31,681 nucleotides of DNA from a virus: IMG/VR virus record IMGVR_UViG_3300025131_000247, positions 1-31,681 of that record, one strand, 5' to 3'. The position numbers and the translations under genes are program-made. Shown here one piece after another: positions 12,468-31,681 of the stretch. The notes beneath the pieces are model-generated. The model worked only from the letters and a program-made list of their open reading frames with translations. It made no database searches and was not told the DNA's origin. Every line of letters starts with the position of its first letter. Position 1 is the first letter of the stretch.

Positions 12468-14249
12468 ATGTCAGTACTTCAAAAATTAACAGAAGGGATT
12501 GTTAATCGCGATCTCAAAAAGGAAGGCGCGGCGCTGCTTGACAAGTGGAGTAAAACGGGCCTTCTTGAAGGGCTTGGAGAGGCCAATGGCAAGCATAACA
12601 TGGCGCGCCTCCTTGAAAATCAGGCCAAGGAGCTTCTTCGCGAAGCTTCAACGATGGCCGGCGGAGATGTTGAGGGTTTTGCAGCCGTCGCGTTCCCCAT
12701 CGTTCGTCGTGTATTCGGTGGCCTGGTTGCTAACGAAATTGTTTCGGTCCAGCCGATGAGTTTGCCTTCCGGGCTTATTTTCTTTATGGATTTCACATTT
12801 AATGAAACTCGATTGGGCGCTACTGCCAATGCATCGCTTTACGGCGGTGGGCGTGTAGGCCAAGAAATTACCGGCGGTGTTACTTTGTCGGGCCTTAACG
12901 AAGAAACAAGTTTTTATAGCCTTAACAATGGATATTCGTCTCCAAGCGGAAGCGCTAACGTGACGCAAACATATGCTGCCTCCGGTACTTGGGGCGCGAA
13001 TGGAGCGGTCAAGGACGGCGGCTCCCTGACGTTGGCGGAGATCAACGATGTTTTGCGCTATGATCCATCATTTGTTTCGGGTACAACCCAGTTTGCAATT
13101 GCTACGGTTAATCTTACTGGAACGGCCAACCGGCTCGACCAGTTTAGTATGGAAAACCTCATTGCCCTCGTGGCAACGGACGGCACTGCGCAAGGGACAT
13201 ACCAAGCGTCGCCAGCCATTAACCAAGTTCGTCGTTTGACGCAACTATCCGGTACTAACAAGCAAGATAGAACCGTTTTTGTTGTGGCCACAGCGACAGA
13301 CCATGGCGGCACCGGCGCAGCGAAATTTGATATCACAGGTACAATTGGTACAGTTAATGTTAACTATCAATTCCCGATGACGGATGATTTCGCAGGTACA
13401 CCGGCCGCAGGCACAACCAATGCTATTGGTGCTGTAGTTGGCCAAGACGCCTGGGGATTGGAAAATAATACCAATATCCCCGAAATCGACCTTAAGGTTG
13501 ATTCGGTGTCTGTCACCGCGCTCACCAAAAAGTTGAAAGCTAAGTGGACTCCCGAACTTGGTCAGGATCTTAATGCCTACCATAACTTGGATGCTGAAGT
13601 TGAACTTACGTCGATTCTTTCAGAGCAAATTGCTCTTGAAATCGACCGAGAGATCATGGAAGATCTTATCAAAGGCGCAACGGCTTCTACTTATTACTGG
13701 TCGCGTTCACCAGGCCTCTTTGTAGAAAGAGATACGGGCGTAGAAGTGGGTGCTTCATCGAAAGCCCCAGACTTCACCGGTACTGTTTCTGAGTGGTATG
13801 AAACTCTTATTGAAACCCTCAATGACGTTTCCGCCCAGATTCACCGTAAGACGCTACGTGGTGGGGCCAACTTTGTTGTTACCTCCCCAGAAGTAGCCAA
13901 CATCCTTGAATTCACGGCCGGCTTCCGCGCAAGCGTTACCGCCGATGACAACAAAGGTGTTGCAGGTGCCGAAAAGGTTGGTAGCCTTAGTAAGAAATTC
14001 GACATTTATGTCGATCCTTACTTCCCGCGCAACCTGTGCTTGGTTGGCCGTAAGGGCAATAGCTTCCTTGAAAGTGGCTATGTATATGCTCCTTATGTGC
14101 CGTTGCAAGTTACTCCCACAATCTTCGGTATTGAAGACTTCGTGCCCCGCAAGGGTGTCATGACTCGATATGCCAAGAAGATGGTTCGTCCCGATATGTA
14201 CGGCTTAGTCGTCGTTCGCGGACTGCTTGGTGAGAGTGGCACTAGCTAA
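12468..14249 (+). CDS. gp23: Major capsid protein (T4 gp23-like)
   Basis: This 593-residue protein is the main head shell subunit. The N-terminal region KHNMARLLENQAKELLREAS and the following FAAVAFPIVRRVFGGLVANEIVS are typical of the gp23 family, as is the C-terminal RPDMYGLVVVRGLLGE. L57-R58-E59 followed by A60 fits the gp21 cleavage rule (L/I-x-E) and lies close to the T4 propeptide boundary (after residue 65). T4 gp23 is 521 residues, so some surface loops are longer here. An AAAGGAG ribosome site precedes the ATG. The gene is followed by the only strong intrinsic terminator seen, consistent with very high expression isolated from downstream genes. Confidence 0.97.
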   Translation: MSVLQKLTEGIVNRDLKKEGAALLDKWSKTGLLEGLGEANGKHNMARLLENQAKELLREASTMAGGDVEGFAAVAFPIVRRVFGGLVANEIVSVQPMSLPSGLIFFMDFTFNETRLGATANASLYGGGRVGQEITGGVTLSGLNEETSFYSLNNGYSSPSGSANVTQTYAASGTWGANGAVKDGGSLTLAEINDVLRYDPSFVSGTTQFAIATVNLTGTANRLDQFSMENLIALVATDGTAQGTYQASPAINQVRRLTQLSGTNKQDRTVFVVATATDHGGTGAAKFDITGTIGTVNVNYQFPMTDDFAGTPAAGTTNAIGAVVGQDAWGLENNTNIPEIDLKVDSVSVTALTKKLKAKWTPELGQDLNAYHNLDAEVELTSILSEQIALEIDREIMEDLIKGATASTYYWSRSPGLFVERDTGVEVGASSKAPDFTGTVSEWYETLIETLNDVSAQIHRKTLRGGANFVVTSPEVANILEFTAGFRASVTADDNKGVAGAEKVGSLSKKFDIYVDPYFPRNLCLVGRKGNSFLESGYVYAPYVPLQVTPTIFGIEDFVPRKGVMTRYAKKMVRPDMYGLVVVRGLLGESGTS

Positions 14250-17428: not shown

Positions 17429-20400
17429 ATGTCTTATAGAAAATTTAAGTTTCTGTCACCGGGTATTTTTATCAAAGAAATTGATAATTCCCAATTACCA
17501 GCAGAACCAACAGCAATGGGCCCAGCCCTGATTGGAAAATTCCAACAAGGCCCTGCTTTAAAACCGATTCAAGTTAATTCTATGGTAGAGTTCACTGATA
17601 TTTTTGGGAATCCCACCGCTGGGGAGACCGGTGACGTTTGGCGCTTAGGAAACAACACCGCGCCTACGTATGCTGCATATGCGGCTCAAGCGTGGCTTCG
17701 AAACAATTCTCCCGTAACGATAGTAAGACTTCTTGGGCAAACCAATTCTAATGCCACCACCAACACTGGGTACGCCGGCTGGGCGACAACACAACTAGAT
17801 TCCAACACGACCGCCGCATCCAACGGTGGCGCCTACGGACTTTTTCTATGTGAAGGGCCAAGCGCTTCGTTTGTGACGGAATCCAGTGCATCCGGTCCTG
17901 ACGGCGGATTCGACGCCAGTATGGCAACCGAGGGAACGCTAGCGGCTGTATGGTACTTAAATAATGGCGCTATTGCTCTTTCTGGTCAGAGTGTTGACCC
18001 AGCGCTTACGTCCGATAAAGGCTTCGCTACATTCATCAGAGCGGTCGATAGTGGGCCCACTTTTAAAGTTATTGTTCAGGATTCAAGCGACAATACGGTT
18101 ATTGACAGCTCCTTCAATTTCGACGAGACGTCACCGCGGTTTATTAGAAAGGTTTTTAATACCAATCCGACGCTCACGAACAGCAACCTCACACCTACAG
18201 GGGGGACTACTCTTAACTATTGGCTTGGCGAAAGCTTCGCCGGAAATCTGAAGAGCTTTAAGGGAACTAATAATACTAATGCACGATTAGGCATTTCTGG
18301 CTCAGTGCCCGCTTCTTGTTATGGCGTTATACTGAGACTGGCTACTCCTGATGGCTCTACTTTAGATGGCGGCGACTTTAGAATGAGTTCAACAAAAAGC
18401 CCGTCCAAACAATTTAGTAAAACAGGCTGGTTTATTTCACAAGATGTGACGAGTGATACAGCATCGTATCAGCCAGGAAACATGCAGAGACTATTTCGGT
18501 TGTGTGCGAGAGAACTAGGGGAAGAGACCCAACGAAAGGTAAAAATTTCTATTAAAAACATTCGGGCTGCCGACCCTGACGCGGGCGACGCATACGGAAG
18601 CTTCACAGTACTCGTACGGCGATTAGATGACTTAGATTCTGCCCCGAAAATTTTAGAGCAATATAACAATTGCAACTTGAACCCGGCCTCTGATCAATAC
18701 ATTGCGAAAAAGATTGGTAATAAATTTGATCAATGGAATGATGACGACCGCCGGTATCGACGACTCGGGGAATACGAAAACGTATCTGATTACGTTTATG
18801 TGGAGACGAACGAGCTTGTAGACAGCCGACGGAGCAATCCGGTATATCTTCCCTTTGGAGTATATGGTCCCCCCCGCTACTTAGGTTTTGCAGTTTCCGG
18901 CACGTCTGCCAAAACATATGATTTTGGCACAGTCCCAACTTCGGGCGGCATTTTCGTTGAAACTGGCAGTGATAATCCCATTAATGCAGCCGGCTCGCCA
19001 TTCGCGACCTCATCGGGAGGTAACGTGGTCCGAGGCCGATATAAGTATCCGGAACTTCGCTTGCGCGCAAGCTCTTCCGAGGGGAGCGTATTAACCGATC
19101 CCCGTGACGCTTATTTTGGAGTCGATACGACGTATGGTAGCTCAAGATATGACCAAAGCGTCATCGACGTTCTGCGCACCAAAGCGGAAGATACGGATAG
19201 CTGGGACGCAGTAGCGAACTTAACAGAAGCAAGTTGGGTTTTTTCACTTGATGATGTAAAGAACGTTAATGTAACTGCTGACACATACAGTGGTAATTAC
19301 GGAGTTAATGGTGTGTACGCGTCAGGCTCGCGCGCAAGCGGCCTTTCTTACACAGCCCACACAGGCTCTGCTAATGCCTCGACGTCCGGCCCTGCTAGTT
19401 CATCTTACCAAAACGTTATTGACCCTGTAAACGGCGGCGTTACCGCAGGATGGGATCAATTTACGGCATGCCTCCACGGAGGAACCGACGGCTTAAAGAT
19501 CACTGAGCGGGATCCTTTTAACAATACCCGTGATTTATCTACGACGGCCACCAATATCAATAAATATGCCTTCAACTCTATAAACGTGGCTATTGATTCT
19601 TTACGAGATCCAGAAATCGTGGAATATAATTTGGTGTCAATGCCCGGCATTGTTAACAACACCCTTAATACAAAATTAGTTCAGATGTGCGAGGATCGAG
19701 GAGACGCGCTGGCGATTATTGACTTGCAAAACGGTTATACCCCTGACACGGAAAATGGGAACAGCAAGGCTGACAGAAAAGGCAACGTTGACAACGTTAT
19801 TAGCAATAAGCGCAACACATTGCGCCTCAATAGTAGCTACGGCTGTGCTTACTATCCGTGGGTGCAAATACGAGATACTATTAATGGCGATATGCTGTGG
19901 GTACCCCCTTCGGTGGTGGCACTGGGAGCGATGTCTTATAGCGAGGCCAATTCGCAACTTTGGTTCGCCCCCGCTGGCTTCACTCGCGGCGGCTTAAGCG
20001 TGAATAGAGCAGGCGGCATCCCGGTTACTGGAGTTGAAGAGAGATTAACTTCTCGTGACCGTGACCGGCTCTACGAAGAAAACATTAATCCAATTGCAAC
20101 TTTCCCGGCGGAAGGGATCGTAATCTTTGGCCAGAAAACCTTGCAACTAGATGCCACCGCTCTAGATAGAATTAATGTACGCCGACTCGTGATTTATTTG
20201 AAAAAACAAATTTCCAGATATGCGGCTACCATTTTGTTTGACCAAAATGTAGCGGCCACTTGGAATCGGTTTAAATCGAAAGTTGTGCCTTTCCTCACTG
20301 ACGTCAAGGCGGGTCTAGGCATTACCGATTATAAATTGATTTTAGATGAGAGCACGACAACACCGGATTTAATTGACCGCAATATCATGTATGCTAAAAT

Positions 20401-20482
20401 ATACGTAAAACCGGCGCGCGCGATTGAATACATTGCAATTGATTTCATTATTACGGATTCAGGAGCATCTTTTGAGGACTAA
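17429..20482 (+). CDS. gp18: Contractile tail sheath protein (T4 gp18-like)
   Basis: This 1017-residue protein is the sheath subunit that contracts to drive the tube into the cell. The N-terminus FLSPGIFIKEIDNSQLP and the C-terminal domain (about residues 860-1017: FPAEGIVIFGQKTLQ, NVRRLVIYLKKQISRYA, AKIYVKPARAIEYIAIDF) are the classic conserved parts. T4 gp18 has 659 residues, so about 350 residues are added, mostly between residues about 110 and 700, where Ser/Thr/Gly-rich segments suggest extra surface domains. A strong AGAGGAG site precedes the ATG. The gene stands in its own gap-bounded unit with leader motifs on both sides, consistent with high expression. Confidence 0.97.
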   Translation: MSYRKFKFLSPGIFIKEIDNSQLPAEPTAMGPALIGKFQQGPALKPIQVNSMVEFTDIFGNPTAGETGDVWRLGNNTAPTYAAYAAQAWLRNNSPVTIVRLLGQTNSNATTNTGYAGWATTQLDSNTTAASNGGAYGLFLCEGPSASFVTESSASGPDGGFDASMATEGTLAAVWYLNNGAIALSGQSVDPALTSDKGFATFIRAVDSGPTFKVIVQDSSDNTVIDSSFNFDETSPRFIRKVFNTNPTLTNSNLTPTGGTTLNYWLGESFAGNLKSFKGTNNTNARLGISGSVPASCYGVILRLATPDGSTLDGGDFRMSSTKSPSKQFSKTGWFISQDVTSDTASYQPGNMQRLFRLCARELGEETQRKVKISIKNIRAADPDAGDAYGSFTVLVRRLDDLDSAPKILEQYNNCNLNPASDQYIAKKIGNKFDQWNDDDRRYRRLGEYENVSDYVYVETNELVDSRRSNPVYLPFGVYGPPRYLGFAVSGTSAKTYDFGTVPTSGGIFVETGSDNPINAAGSPFATSSGGNVVRGRYKYPELRLRASSSEGSVLTDPRDAYFGVDTTYGSSRYDQSVIDVLRTKAEDTDSWDAVANLTEASWVFSLDDVKNVNVTADTYSGNYGVNGVYASGSRASGLSYTAHTGSANASTSGPASSSYQNVIDPVNGGVTAGWDQFTACLHGGTDGLKITERDPFNNTRDLSTTATNINKYAFNSINVAIDSLRDPEIVEYNLVSMPGIVNNTLNTKLVQMCEDRGDALAIIDLQNGYTPDTENGNSKADRKGNVDNVISNKRNTLRLNSSYGCAYYPWVQIRDTINGDMLWVPPSVVALGAMSYSEANSQLWFAPAGFTRGGLSVNRAGGIPVTGVEERLTSRDRDRLYEENINPIATFPAEGIVIFGQKTLQLDATALDRINVRRLVIYLKKQISRYAATILFDQNVAATWNRFKSKVVPFLTDVKAGLGITDYKLILDESTTTPDLIDRNIMYAKIYVKPARAIEYIAIDFIITDSGASFED

Positions 20483-26555: not shown

Positions 26556-29417
26556 ATGACTGAATGTAGAGATGGGGAACCTAGACAAAGCGGAGCGACC
26601 CTACAAGATGCGCGCCTAAAAACGGACGCCTACCAACAAACTTATTTAATGAGCAATTTAAATAATGTGGTGGCGCCTCTCCAGGAGACACCAAGTGTGA
26701 GCAGGCACTTAAAACTGCTCGCCTCTAAGAACAACACGGACGCATTAGTTAACCGGGTCACTGTGCCTCCGGAAGTTATAACTTTTTTTGACGGACGCCC
26801 TATAGACTATGGCCAGCTCGTTCCGCACATCCAAATTTATAAAGTTTATATCAAAAATAGAAAACGCGTATCCGAGGTTTTATTTCCTTTCCGAGCATAC
26901 ACTGATTTTGAACAAATGAAACCACAAAATTTTTTAAGAGCACCTTTCCGCGGCACAGACGCGGGCATCGAAAGTGTGGACTTAAAGCTCGAAGGAAAGG
27001 GGCGGAATCCGGTTTCAATGAGCATCATGCAACTTACGATTAAGCTCGTATTTAATGATGTGAAAACCTTGTTTCGGCCTCTTGGGGGGAGCCCATGGGG
27101 GGTAGGAAACGTCCAGTATTCTGATCTGATGAGATACCCCCCAGGTCAATTAACAGACGACGCCGACCCGCGCACCCTCCCGGCGTCGTTCAGAATAAGG
27201 CTTTCGTTAGGGTGGAATCTCCGCGGCAAAGCCCGGGCCAACGGTTTGAGCGGGTTTTCGATGGCGAAAGGGAACCCTATTTTTGAAGATCAGGGACTCC
27301 TTGCGGGGTATGATTTTGTTGACGCCGTTCTAAAATCAAAAATTAGTTTTATTGGTGATTTGTGGTCACACGATATGGACTTTTTGGAGAACGGCTCTGT
27401 CAAAGTAACTTTAAAATATATGGGAGCATTGGAAAACTCTTTTAAAACGGGCACAGCCGACCTTTTAAAAACTTATAGTTTAGATGGTAACAAAACCATT
27501 AACAAAGTAAAAGATGAGTTGCGCAAGTATGAGCTAACAGCGTGGCGAAAGGCGCTAGGGCAAAATAAAAAATTAAAGAATGTCCTCACTATTCGAAAAA
27601 AAGCTAAAGAAGTTCAAGCCTTGATTAATAACATGGAGGATAAATTACAAAGCACGGAGGAGACAATATTTGTAGATGCAAAGGAGGCCGTAAATAAATC
27701 TTGGACCACGTTCGCAGATGCGAGAAAAGAGTCCGCGGTATTAGGAACCACTAGCGGCAAACTTAATGAAGCAGCCACTGATTTAAAGGTTCATACGATG
27801 GAAAAGGTCTTGCGCAACGAGGTGGCCACCGCTGAAAGTAAGCTGGACCAACTAGCTTTTAGCCAAATGGGCGGCGCCGGCTCTGCGGAGGCCAACGCCT
27901 GGATGGCGGAGCTACAAAAGAAAAGAAAAGAACTCATGCAAAAGATTCAAACGTTTGAAAGTCAACTACGAGCTAAGTACCTATTCTCCTACATCATAAA
28001 ACTTATAGAAGCCAATAAATTAGCCTGGATAGATACGAGCACAGATGAGTTTCAGAGTTTTTTACATCATCGCATACAATACGCGGAAGCAGCCACCAAG
28101 AAACAGCAAGAGAAAGAAATGTCCGGCATGAAACAAGTTAGCAGCACAGTTGCATCTTCAGATGTTGAAACGGTCGAGACGAGTTTTGCCCAGGAACTTG
28201 GAGACCCTTCCGCGGCCTCTGCTGAAAGCGTGACCAAGTCCGACGCCACGCTATTCTTGTCCGAACAATATAAACAGGGCGATAAATTAATGTTTTTTAG
28301 GCTGGGAGATTTGGTATCTATCATGCTTGATCATGCCAACTTTGGCGAAAGCCTTGAAACGCTAGTTCCCGACTTCAAGATTCTCTTTGGAAATTTTGAC
28401 TACTCCCCCATTGGAAGCGACAATCTTCGTCGCGCCAGTTTATATGATTTACCAGTTTCTTTGAAGCTGTTTGAAAAATTTATAGCTATGAAAATTGTAG
28501 GCACCGGTCGCCAAAGTTATTTATTCATGGACTTTGTTGAGGATCTCATTCAATTTTTAATGGACAAGGTTATTACGCCTTCCTCGCCTGACGGCGCGAC
28601 GAGCGCGAACCCAGTGAATAGCGCCTTTAAGATTGGCATCGTGCCCATTGATTTGCCGAAAAAATTGATTAAAAGTAGTTTCGATGCTAATGGGAGACAC
28701 ACAGACTATGAGGTAGATCTCGACGACATCGCTGGCTCTCCGCGCAATCTGAGTGTCACTCAAATTTCAAATACTTTTCTTATACATGCCTATAAGACGG
28801 AACCCTTTGAGGAGCGCATCAAAAATTCTTATACTGGTGATCGCTTTAAGGACAGGAAAGAGGGCATTTTTCACTTTTTGGTCGGCGGCCCGAACAGAGG
28901 GCTTTTGAAAAGCATCACATTTCAACAGATGCAAAACACCAAACATGCGATGGGCATCTTTGAGAAGGCGCAATCAGGGGGAATCGCTTCGAGGCGAGGA
29001 GTTATTAAGCCTGCTATGTTCGGGTGTGAACTCACTTTAGTGGGGAATCCTTATTTTCTAATTGGACAGCAGTTTTATGTTAATACGAGCTTAATAAGTG
29101 CAAACAACTTTGCCAATGAAATGATGATGAATGGCGGGTATTACATGGTTACGTCCGTGGAATCTCACTTTGGCGTGGGAAAGTGGGAAACCAAAGTAAA
29201 AGGTATCCTGCAAGTGGCGGATAGCGTCTTAAAGAATGCGAAAAAAGAAGGCGTTGTTGAAGTATACAATGCCGGGGACCACTTTGTCGATAACGCTAAA
29301 ACAGTCGGCGCCGCCGCCTATAGCATGTGGCAGTCCACCGGAATTCCGGGCGCGGCCAAGTCCGCTTGGGATGGGCTCTCTGGAAACAACGAAGCGCCTA
29401 AGAAGGGATCTGGCTAA
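26556..29417 (+). CDS. Large probable baseplate hub protein (953 residues)
   Basis: No exact family is recognised. Residues about 60-310 look beta-rich with a possible conserved block (VLFPFRAYTDFEQMKPQNFL). Residues about 320-520 are a long Lys/Glu/Gln/Ala-rich helical or coiled-coil section. The C-terminal part is beta-rich again and ends with LVGNPYFLIGQQFYVNTSLI and GGYYMVTSVESHFGVGKWET, a pattern seen at the end of hub proteins of contractile systems (gp27/GpD-like: x-G-N-P-x-x-x-x-G, then Y-x-V-x-S-V-x-H-x-x-x-x-G-x-W-x-T). ATG 26556 with GAGGA (26543-26547) is preferred to TTG 26529, which would overlap the previous gene. Its stop overlaps the next ATG by one base. The hub role is inferred from the C-terminus and neighbours. 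Confidence 0.7.
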   Translation: MTECRDGEPRQSGATLQDARLKTDAYQQTYLMSNLNNVVAPLQETPSVSRHLKLLASKNNTDALVNRVTVPPEVITFFDGRPIDYGQLVPHIQIYKVYIKNRKRVSEVLFPFRAYTDFEQMKPQNFLRAPFRGTDAGIESVDLKLEGKGRNPVSMSIMQLTIKLVFNDVKTLFRPLGGSPWGVGNVQYSDLMRYPPGQLTDDADPRTLPASFRIRLSLGWNLRGKARANGLSGFSMAKGNPIFEDQGLLAGYDFVDAVLKSKISFIGDLWSHDMDFLENGSVKVTLKYMGALENSFKTGTADLLKTYSLDGNKTINKVKDELRKYELTAWRKALGQNKKLKNVLTIRKKAKEVQALINNMEDKLQSTEETIFVDAKEAVNKSWTTFADARKESAVLGTTSGKLNEAATDLKVHTMEKVLRNEVATAESKLDQLAFSQMGGAGSAEANAWMAELQKKRKELMQKIQTFESQLRAKYLFSYIIKLIEANKLAWIDTSTDEFQSFLHHRIQYAEAATKKQQEKEMSGMKQVSSTVASSDVETVETSFAQELGDPSAASAESVTKSDATLFLSEQYKQGDKLMFFRLGDLVSIMLDHANFGESLETLVPDFKILFGNFDYSPIGSDNLRRASLYDLPVSLKLFEKFIAMKIVGTGRQSYLFMDFVEDLIQFLMDKVITPSSPDGATSANPVNSAFKIGIVPIDLPKKLIKSSFDANGRHTDYEVDLDDIAGSPRNLSVTQISNTFLIHAYKTEPFEERIKNSYTGDRFKDRKEGIFHFLVGGPNRGLLKSITFQQMQNTKHAMGIFEKAQSGGIASRRGVIKPAMFGCELTLVGNPYFLIGQQFYVNTSLISANNFANEMMMNGGYYMVTSVESHFGVGKWETKVKGILQVADSVLKNAKKEGVVEVYNAGDHFVDNAKTVGAAAYSMWQSTGIPGAAKSAWDGLSGNNEAPKKGSG

Positions 29418-30766
29418 TGGCCTATTTAGACAAGCCACTTATTGGAAGCAATTCTTTGACCCAGCCGCAGCTGTTCAAGGAGAGGTTAAAGTACAAGGAA
29501 AAGGCTTTTTCTAACTTGTTTGACCCCACCCCCCTGGATACAGTGTACGAGAAGCCATTTTATGGAAAAGTAGACATATATGGCACCCCCATTTATCCTA
29601 CTGAAATTAACATGACCCAACTGCCCGGCGCCGGCCTAATTTTGGCGCACGATTTTGTGGCCGCGGCATTCCAAGATTTCAAGGAATTTATGGACCGCGC
29701 CATCGGCCTCAAAGAAAGAATGTTTGCAGACCTATTTTCTTCCTTCCTTCCTAGATCGGCATTTGTAAGTGTTCATCAAGTGTACAACGATCATTTTGTT
29801 AAAAATGTTTTTGAAGGGTTTGCCAATGATTATATGAATATTCCCAAAATTAATAGAAAAATTAGAAATTTTCATGATCTCGTGAAAGAGTTTTCCCACT
29901 ACACTAGGTTGGTAGCTAATAAGTTTCCTGTTACGAAATCGGGATTTGTTGTCTCCCCCCTCTGCACAAATGCTATAAGTGGCTTGTTTATCGAATTAGA
30001 TCGACTCCCACAGGACGACGATCAGGTTAAGTATGAGCGTTTTCTTGCGAGACCTTCATTCACGAGATATGCGCACGTAGCCAGCGGTTTTGGTTTTTTT
30101 GTAGACAAAAACGCGCCATGGCGCCTCGCTGTTAACATGGGGTCTCCAGTTACGAAAGGGTACATGGACAGATTTGGCATAAGCTTGGAGGACAACAGTG
30201 TATTTTCAACTTATTTTTACGAAAGTGAGTACTACTCTTATGAGAGCATAAAGGTTCGTTTATGGAATATTTACGCAGCTTTAATAGCAAACCCAGCATC
30301 TCGTACGTATGGATCTGTTTACAAAACAAAGAACTGTACCAAGGCTTTGTGGGATAACGTAGCGCACAACAGCTACCACACCACCATTGCGGAAGGTCTC
30401 CGGGCGCCCATTCCTCTTGACTATGAAACTGAATTTAAAAAAGAATATAGTGATGAATATTTTTTACCAATTTACTTAAAACTGAGATGGGATGAGAGTA
30501 AAATTAAAGACGATCAACGGGATTTTAAAGCAGCGCTTAAAAGAATATTAGATTTTTATAAAGTATATGGCATAGAGGCAGCCGTAACGTACTTAGGCCA
30601 TGTGGTAAGGAAAACAAATATTTATGAGAAGCCCAAAGTAAGCAACGCACCCCCCTATAAAATAAAATATTTTGGAGAATCAACTAGTTCAGGGTTGTAT
30701 TCTTATAAAACACCTGCTATAATAAAAAAAGAAAAAACTTCGACGGCGGACAGCACGAAATATTAG
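29417..30766 (+). CDS. Unrecognised virion-cluster protein (449 residues)
   Basis: The protein has no motif that I can name. It looks mixed, with many aromatic residues: an N-terminal segment KPLIGSNSLTQPQLFKERLKYKEKAF, a central helical part (DFKEFMDRAIGLKERMFADLF, HDLVKEFSHYTRLVANKF), a conserved-looking block VASGFGFFVDKNAPWRLAVN (about 227-246) and a Lys/Ser/Thr-rich tail. The block FVDKNAPWRLAVNMGSP with nearby Tyr-rich segments could form a binding pocket, but this is speculative. The ATG overlaps the stop of the hub-like gene (TAATG), so the two are translationally coupled and probably act together in the baseplate. A polymerase gene follows after 5 nt. Confidence 0.8.
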   Translation: MAYLDKPLIGSNSLTQPQLFKERLKYKEKAFSNLFDPTPLDTVYEKPFYGKVDIYGTPIYPTEINMTQLPGAGLILAHDFVAAAFQDFKEFMDRAIGLKERMFADLFSSFLPRSAFVSVHQVYNDHFVKNVFEGFANDYMNIPKINRKIRNFHDLVKEFSHYTRLVANKFPVTKSGFVVSPLCTNAISGLFIELDRLPQDDDQVKYERFLARPSFTRYAHVASGFGFFVDKNAPWRLAVNMGSPVTKGYMDRFGISLEDNSVFSTYFYESEYYSYESIKVRLWNIYAALIANPASRTYGSVYKTKNCTKALWDNVAHNSYHTTIAEGLRAPIPLDYETEFKKEYSDEYFLPIYLKLRWDESKIKDDQRDFKAALKRILDFYKVYGIEAAVTYLGHVVRKTNIYEKPKVSNAPPYKIKYFGESTSSGLYSYKTPAIIKKEKTSTADSTKY

Positions 30767-30771
30767 ATTAA

Positions 30772-31681
30772 ATGATTTTTCAGACCTTTGACGATAAAAA
30801 GAAATGTGTTGCAATTTTTGCAAAAGGTAAAATTCACAAACACAAACTACCCTCCCCTCTCGCAAAAACATGGGATTATTCCGAGATCTTGAGAGATAAA
30901 GATGTGGAATATGCAAAGTACTACTGCGGTGGGAAACGCTTGGACGAAGTTTGTCCTGACCATCTAAGAAAAGAGTGGGAAAATATAAATGGGAAATTAG
31001 AAGCTTTTTATCGCGCTGTTAACGAAGCGAAACTAGATCTTAATGAGCATTGTTTTTTTGATGTTGCTCCTCCACACTTTTTGCTAGAGTATGGTCGCAT
31101 CAAGGAGAAAATTTGCGCCTATGTTTTTTCAAATTTTAAAAAACCACTAGACTATGAAGTTAAAGTTGGGCTTGCAAAAGTATTAGTAGAAATAAAGAAC
31201 ACTAAATTGAACCTTAGCTTGTCTTCCTTGGACGCCCGGCGCCACGAGTTTAAAGTACGACGGTTCCTTCAGAAAATAAATAAAACATCTCCCTACATTA
31301 TATACGACATGAAGGGCACTAAAACTGGGAGACTGACATCGACGGCTTTTCCAATCTTAACGATGGATAAGGGATACAGAACCATATTGCGGCCCAACAA
31401 TAAGTGGTTTCTGGAATTAGACTACAATGCTGCGGAACTGCGCGTCATGCTTGCGCTTTTGGGGCAAGAGCAGCCGCATGGAGACATCCACAGTTGGAAC
31501 ATGCAGAACGTTTTTAAAAATGTCGCCACCAGAGAAGAGGCAAAAAAGAGAGTATTTGCGTGGCTGTACAATCCCGAGTCAAAAGACCGCCTCTTAAACA
31601 AAGAATATGATCGAGACTCTGTGTTACAAAAGTACTACAATGGAAGCCAAGTGACAACCCTTTGGAACAGGACAATTGATT
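30772..31681 (+). CDS. Family A DNA polymerase, 5' part (runs off the window)
   Basis: The frame is open from ATG 30772 to the window end: 303 codons, no stop. An in-frame TAA at 30769-30771 rules out an upstream start. Polymerase landmarks are clear: TGRLTS (185-190; compare TGRLSS), motif A LELDYNAAELRVMLALL (D217, E222), DIHS (238-241), and a motif B helix R254-x3-K258-x3-F262-x3-Y266, whose spacing equals R754-K758-F762-Y766 of E. coli Pol I. The glycine after the tyrosine is N here. Only about 180 residues precede TGRL and no exonuclease motifs are seen, so there is no room for a 3'-5' exonuclease plus thumb of usual size. It probably copies or repairs phage DNA. Motif C lies beyond the window. 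Confidence 0.9.
   Translation, partial: MIFQTFDDKKKCVAIFAKGKIHKHKLPSPLAKTWDYSEILRDKDVEYAKYYCGGKRLDEVCPDHLRKEWENINGKLEAFYRAVNEAKLDLNEHCFFDVAPPHFLLEYGRIKEKICAYVFSNFKKPLDYEVKVGLAKVLVEIKNTKLNLSLSSLDARRHEFKVRRFLQKINKTSPYIIYDMKGTKTGRLTSTAFPILTMDKGYRTILRPNNKWFLELDYNAAELRVMLALLGQEQPHGDIHSWNMQNVFKNVATREEAKKRVFAWLYNPESKDRLLNKEYDRDSVLQKYYNGSQVTTLWNRTID

Follow-up and report, generated by a model that had tools for sequence, protein, structure and literature searches.

A compact family A DNA polymerase without an exonuclease domain in predicted far-T4-type marine phages

We looked at the gene found at the 3' end of a viral contig and found that it encodes a family A DNA polymerase (PolA) without an exonuclease domain. 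The window, meaning the whole stretch of DNA that was analysed, is the entire IMG/VR record of 31,681 bases, and the polymerase open reading frame (ORF 30772-31681) runs off the contig end. The explanation that we consider probable is that this gene encodes a compact, non-proofreading polymerase of the divPolA1 kind, acting as an accessory gap filler in phages whose main replicase would be a family C polymerase (PolC).

The polymerase gene and its full-length relatives

The polymerase, its motifs and the gene that precedes it are located in the window as follows.

29417..30766, + strand: conserved gene directly upstream of the polymerase; matches no family; its homologue occupies this position in 72 of 72 eligible relatives
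30772..31681, + strand: compact family A DNA polymerase, of which the first 303 of about 394 residues are present (motifs, family matches, relatives)
31324..31335, + strand: TGRL, in which R187 is the equivalent of Klenow R668 (motif reading, alignment)
31420..31443, + strand: motif A, DYNAAELR, with the equivalents of D705 and E710 (motif reading, alignment)
31531..31572, + strand: motif B, R-K-F-Y-N, with the equivalents of R754, K758, F762 and Y766 and with N replacing G (alignment)

The ORF starts 5 nt past the stop of the upstream gene, as a first-pass annotation of this DNA had noted. That annotation also called the upstream gene structural, a role that only its position suggests. Since a TAA codon immediately precedes the ATG of the polymerase, the start cannot be farther upstream and the N-terminus is complete in frame. 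TGRL, motif A and motif B were confirmed where they had been placed, motif B having the pattern R-x3-K-x3-F-x3-Y at 31531-31569, followed by N. Pfam and PHROGs both pointed weakly to family A for the window fragment, with E 5e-5 and 22.8 bits for DNA_pol_A (gathering score 34.3) and E 1e-10 for PHROG 17 'DNA polymerase'; full-length relatives were over the DNA_pol_A cut-off in 10 of 10 records. No match was obtained at E 0.01 when the 303-aa fragment was compared with named phage records by tblastn.

A scan of IMG/VR with the window polymerase gave 289 related stretches in viral contigs, from which 80 loci with identities of 47-81% were fetched, and with a profile at least 595 such stretches were detected. 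Between close relatives dN/dS was about 0.06-0.13 (the pair L004-L022 was excluded, its ungapped codons being misaligned), indicating strong purifying selection. With 289 related viral stretches and such dN/dS values, the ORF is not a chance frame. The complete relatives, 79 in number, are 393-399 aa long, which settles the total length that the first-pass annotation had left to be checked. We set twelve active-site positions beside those of E. coli Pol I, T7 gp5 and further phage enzymes. The equivalents of R668, D705, E710, R754, K758, F762, Y766, N845, Q849, H881 and D882 are invariant in the marine clade, D346 (the D882 equivalent) being taken from the relatives; the window itself stops short of motif C. 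The E883 equivalent is Ser in both tabulated representatives and Asn in relative L057, and motif C of the relatives reads H-D-S, not the H-D-E that had been expected. Altogether, the family A motifs A, B and C are present, as are Asp705, Asp882 and the R668/K758/Y766/Q849 set, and every catalytic position for nucleotidyl transfer is kept except E883. The F at the F762 site and the Asn in place of Gly after the motif B Tyr, both pointed out earlier, proved invariant, the former in the compact polymerase family and the latter in a 25-sequence alignment.

The AlphaFold2 model of the 394-aa polymerase had a mean pLDDT of 94.6 and a pTM of 0.91. Its PDB fold matches were dominated by family A polymerases (E 1e-12 to 1e-13), the best being apPOL, Bst, Taq, Klenow, Pol nu and Pol theta with TM-scores, normalised by query length, of about 0.5-0.65. 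A BFVD fold search returned no near-identical fold (best TM 0.65), which is weak evidence as an absence. No exonuclease domain was found in the model, nor by PF01612. Domain lengths were compared with Klenow by hand counts on a sequence alignment, with no coordinate superposition: about 137 residues precede the first polymerase-domain helix (about 211 in Klenow), about 36 lie between the LNID/VKID segment and TGRL (about 118), and the fingers segment from the Y766 to the N845 equivalent has 45 residues (79). By these counts, the enzyme has no exonuclease domain, a thumb truncated by about 80 residues and shortened fingers. The first-pass annotation had judged the roughly 180 residues before the palm too few for the usual exonuclease and thumb; it was right for the exonuclease, but a thumb is present in reduced form. 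Full-length relatives neither lack motif C nor carry an exonuclease domain in the same polypeptide, the two findings that it had named as speaking against its reading. The Ser at the E883 site and the missing domains might suggest a decaying or inactive remnant, which we regard as very improbable given the low dN/dS, the invariant catalytic residues and a gene position that is constant across 79 relatives.

Virion genes and the module headed by the polymerase

Four virion genes of the window are informative about the phage type.

1226..2812, + strand: T4-type large terminase (gp17); family match, collinear with relative G005 and phage immuto
2818..4815, + strand: portal (gp20-like); homologous to the Gp20 annotated in immuto, E 7e-105
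12468..14249, + strand: major capsid protein gp23; family match, the best annotated relatives being far-T4 phages
17429..20482, + strand: tail sheath; homologous to the tail sheath annotated in immuto, E 5e-78

The virion genes of the window are collinear with those of G005 and homologous to those of immuto, and among annotated records the gp23 is nearest to those of immuto, Microcystis phage Mel-JY01 and RM378. The window belongs to a large marine phage whose virion is of the far-T4 type (gp23/gp20/gp17, contractile tail). The earlier claim of a family A polymerase in a T4-like virion cluster is borne out by motifs, family matches, fold and the gp23, gp20 and gp17 genes. The sole match in genome contigs, which lies in the 'chromosome' of the bacterial WOR-3 MAG bin77 (L300, CP070664.1), was rejected as a host clue: runs of 100 N flank the scaffold that carries the module there, and this scaffold is most likely phage DNA that was binned wrongly.

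The compact PolA is the first gene of a replication/recombination module. In G005 it is followed by genes for an FtsZ-like protein, a gp32-type SSB, FKBP, RecA, a 5'-3' exonuclease, a DnaB-type helicase and ribonucleotide reductase. This module is conserved among the loci long enough to be eligible, with the FtsZ-like gene in 79 of 79, SSB in 72 of 74, RecA in 59 of 61, the 5'-3' exonuclease in 40 of 40 and the helicase in 25 of 31. The FtsZ-like protein, of 275-290 aa, lies directly 3' of the compact PolA, past the window end (for example L002:11185-12048 and L071:11188-12024, and 77 further loci), and is without a Pfam, NCBIfam or clear PHROG match. Its AlphaFold2 model (pLDDT 93.2) matches FtsZ and TubZ with a TM of about 0.7 and about 10% identity, and its GTP-binding loops look diverged. 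Judging from the model, it is possibly a new phage tubulin-like protein. Another gene of G005 (L288:3464-4120), the product of which matches the S-adenosylmethionine lyase family, is homologous to Mel-JY01 52405-53691, located within the compact PolA module of Mel-JY01.

Replication genes in long relatives and the probable role of the compact polymerase

T4-like phages normally replicate with the family B polymerase gp43. We searched ten long relatives of 58-193 kb, whose records are classed as linear and possibly incomplete, so that absences are not proof. In these records, DNA_pol_B was found in none of the ten, which answers the earlier question about gp43, DNA_pol_A_exo1 (PF01612) in none of the ten, and RNase_T/DnaQ (PF00929) in none of the seven searched. 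DNA_pol3_alpha was detected in all ten, over the Pfam cut-off in nine and with E 0.004 on a 1,143-aa frame in the tenth, and these family C (DnaE-type) polymerases are about 1,140-1,160 aa long. The six PolC regions that were fetched lie 13-17 kb downstream of the compact PolA on the same strand and encode 1,141-1,156 aa, with the catalytic motif PDIDYD (PDxD) intact in six of six aligned. The PolC of G005 has PHP, NTPase and finger domains and is over the cut-off of the DNA polymerase III alpha superfamily. Near PolC, G005 also carries adenylosuccinate synthetase and IMP dehydrogenase genes, a purine-synthesis pair (L111:16821-17822, L112:1624-2664). G005 encodes a DnaG-type primase, homologous to the DnaG annotated in immuto; a search with PF13155 found no primase in seven records and missed the G005 homologue too.

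Three ideas were set aside on these data. The compact PolA as the missing primase was dropped, given the DnaG-type homologue in G005. A split Klenow with a separate proofreading gene was rejected, PF01612 being absent from the ten records and PF00929 from the seven searched, and no proofreading partner found. A Z-genome polymerase, prompted by the adenylosuccinate synthetase gene, was also rejected, since PurA outscores PurZ and NCBIfam DpoZ scored 24.9 bits against a cut-off of 500.

In the gap-filling explanation, PolC would do the bulk of replication, as its domain completeness and general knowledge of DnaE enzymes suggest, and the compact PolA would fill gaps on the lagging strand or at recombination/repair intermediates. 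Working on template covered by SSB, it would cooperate with the 5'-3' exonuclease encoded by a separate gene, the two being possibly a Pol I split into two polypeptides. Given the missing proofreading domain and the short thumb, the compact PolA should synthesise DNA distributively and less accurately, unless assisted by a partner. The two polymerase genes coexist in the long relatives, and their products probably divide the labour in this way. As a counterpoint, the change of E883 to Ser together with the short thumb could make the activity weak or altered, and it is the compact PolA, not PolC, that sits with helicase and SSB. Of the two roles proposed in the first-pass annotation, the second polymerase holds, with PolC in 10 of 10 long relatives, whereas the replacement replicase for gp43 is not supported, the same PolC being the likelier replicase.

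Pol nu and Pol theta are exonuclease-less family A enzymes, and a polymerase of this translesion/end-joining type would copy damaged DNA or extend RecA-paired recombination intermediates. In line with this role, the compact PolA lacks a proofreading domain, its module includes RecA and SSB, and the PDB fold matches include Pol nu and Pol theta. We nevertheless think it unlikely, though worth keeping in mind: the matches to Klenow, Bst and Taq are just as good, which leaves the fold uninformative on this point, the fingers segment is shorter than that of Klenow, and gap filling accounts better for the constant 5'-3' exonuclease partner. The compact PolA could also be the replicative polymerase of the phage, with PolC in another role, as its place with helicase and SSB and the conserved context of divPolA1 (PMC11348598) would fit. 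This seems improbable to us for an enzyme with no proofreading, a truncated thumb and no recognised processivity factor, in phages that encode an intact PolC with PHP, NTPase and fingers in every long relative.

E710 is the steric gate that excludes ribonucleotides, and it is invariant in the marine clade. This speaks against RNA primers or transcripts being made by a PolA-derived single-subunit RNA polymerase or primase, as proposed for divPolA2, which we find hardly credible. General precedent exists in that single-subunit RNA polymerases share the PolA fold, but the phage has its own DnaG-type primase (G005), RNA polymerases are absent among the fold matches listed, and there is no profile relation to divPolA2. 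We retain the accessory gap filler as the preferred explanation. As a long shot, the compact PolA, the FtsZ-fold protein and the 5' nuclease might form one conserved machine, in which the tubulin-like protein would organise or anchor the gap-filling polymerase at the phage replication site, whatever the replicase family.

Relation to divPolA1 and other known systems

The name divPolA1 was given to an extra PolA with an inactivated exonuclease and a truncated thumb, with immuto as the type case (Yutin et al. 2024, PMC11348598). Its gene context is the conserved replication context while that of the 'regular' DNAP varies, from which Yutin et al. argue that divPolA1 itself participates in replication (PMC11348598). 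In Flavobacterium phage immuto 3-5A, gene 1 is the compact PolA, with the genes for SSB, RecA, 5'-3' exonuclease and helicase after it; the full-length PolA, of 778 aa, is found at 37.9 kb. Mel-JY01 has the same module order including the compact PolA, and also a family B polymerase; its compact PolA, of the divPolA1 kind, is unannotated as such (50397-51623, WWT39333; L123:10398-11624). A 456-aa compact PolA of LR756508 (L095; uncultured phage, 484 kb) groups with divPolA1 as well.

Profile comparison by hhalign links the marine enzymes to the compact PolA of immuto and Mel-JY01 with E 4e-14. In a maximum-likelihood IQ-TREE tree of 289 columns, the marine clade and the immuto/Mel-JY01/LR756508 clade are sisters, each with UFBoot 100, and the two are united at UFBoot 100 against seven canonical enzymes, a small outgroup that, with the long branches, makes the rooting provisional. 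On this basis, the marine enzymes appear as a distinct, widespread sister branch of divPolA1 as represented by immuto, Mel-JY01 and LR756508, the three GOV-bin divPolA1 genomes of Yutin et al. (MK892584, MK892766 and MK892784; PMC11348598) standing outside the comparison. Since one branch of the figure of Yutin et al. carries PolC (PMC11348598), these GOV-bin members may belong to the marine clade; that BFVD holds no near-identical fold was counted against this, as weak evidence.

Three other systems were compared. Like Klenow of E. coli Pol I, the marine enzyme has the palm and O-helix motifs, with 11 of 12 compared positions shared; unlike Klenow, it is without the 3'-5' exonuclease and without about 80 thumb and 35 fingers residues, and has Ser for E883. 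The 5' nuclease, part of E. coli Pol I, is a separate gene in the marine phages. Rhodothermus phage RM378 (far-T4) has related gp23 and gp20-type genes and also keeps polymerase and exonuclease functions on separate genes. It was rejected as a direct precedent because its split polymerase gene is of family B, NP_835611 matching the family B exonuclease domain, and neither PF00476 nor the compact-PolA profile A1 found a compact PolA in RM378. The divPolA2 of Barba-type phages (AUR84708), likewise a small PolA-fold protein that lacks an exonuclease and accompanies a regular DNAP, has a variable gene context (PMC11348598); identity with it was rejected, the hhalign probability against AUR84708 being 0.25 on a 0-100 scale.

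The closest likeness is thus to divPolA1. As there, a compact PolA with no active exonuclease and a truncated thumb occurs besides a regular DNAP in phages of 155-190 kb, heads an SSB-RecA-5' exonuclease-DnaB helicase module, and is monophyletic at UFBoot 100. Unlike the enzymes of immuto, Mel-JY01 and LR756508, which have TSRP/TGRP, H, Y and Y, the marine clade keeps TGRL, E710, R754 and H881, and at position 883 it has Ser where they have A. The H710/Y754/Y881/A883 signature is the one seen here in these three phages, not a published definition. The marine enzyme has a further reduced N-terminal exonuclease region compared with immuto (394 against 441 aa), and its gene is followed by the FtsZ-like one, unlike those of immuto and Mel-JY01. 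With its canonical catalytic set, the marine clade lends itself better to biochemical work than the more diverged divPolA1 enzymes do, and it is abundant in IMG/VR. Finally, the partner replicase is PolC in the marine relatives, PolA in immuto and PolB in Mel-JY01, which suggests that the helper stays while the replicase changes. With the main replicase of family A, B or C across far-T4 phages and the helper constant with SSB, RecA, 5' nuclease and helicase, these phages would offer a testable core accessory function apart from fork replication.
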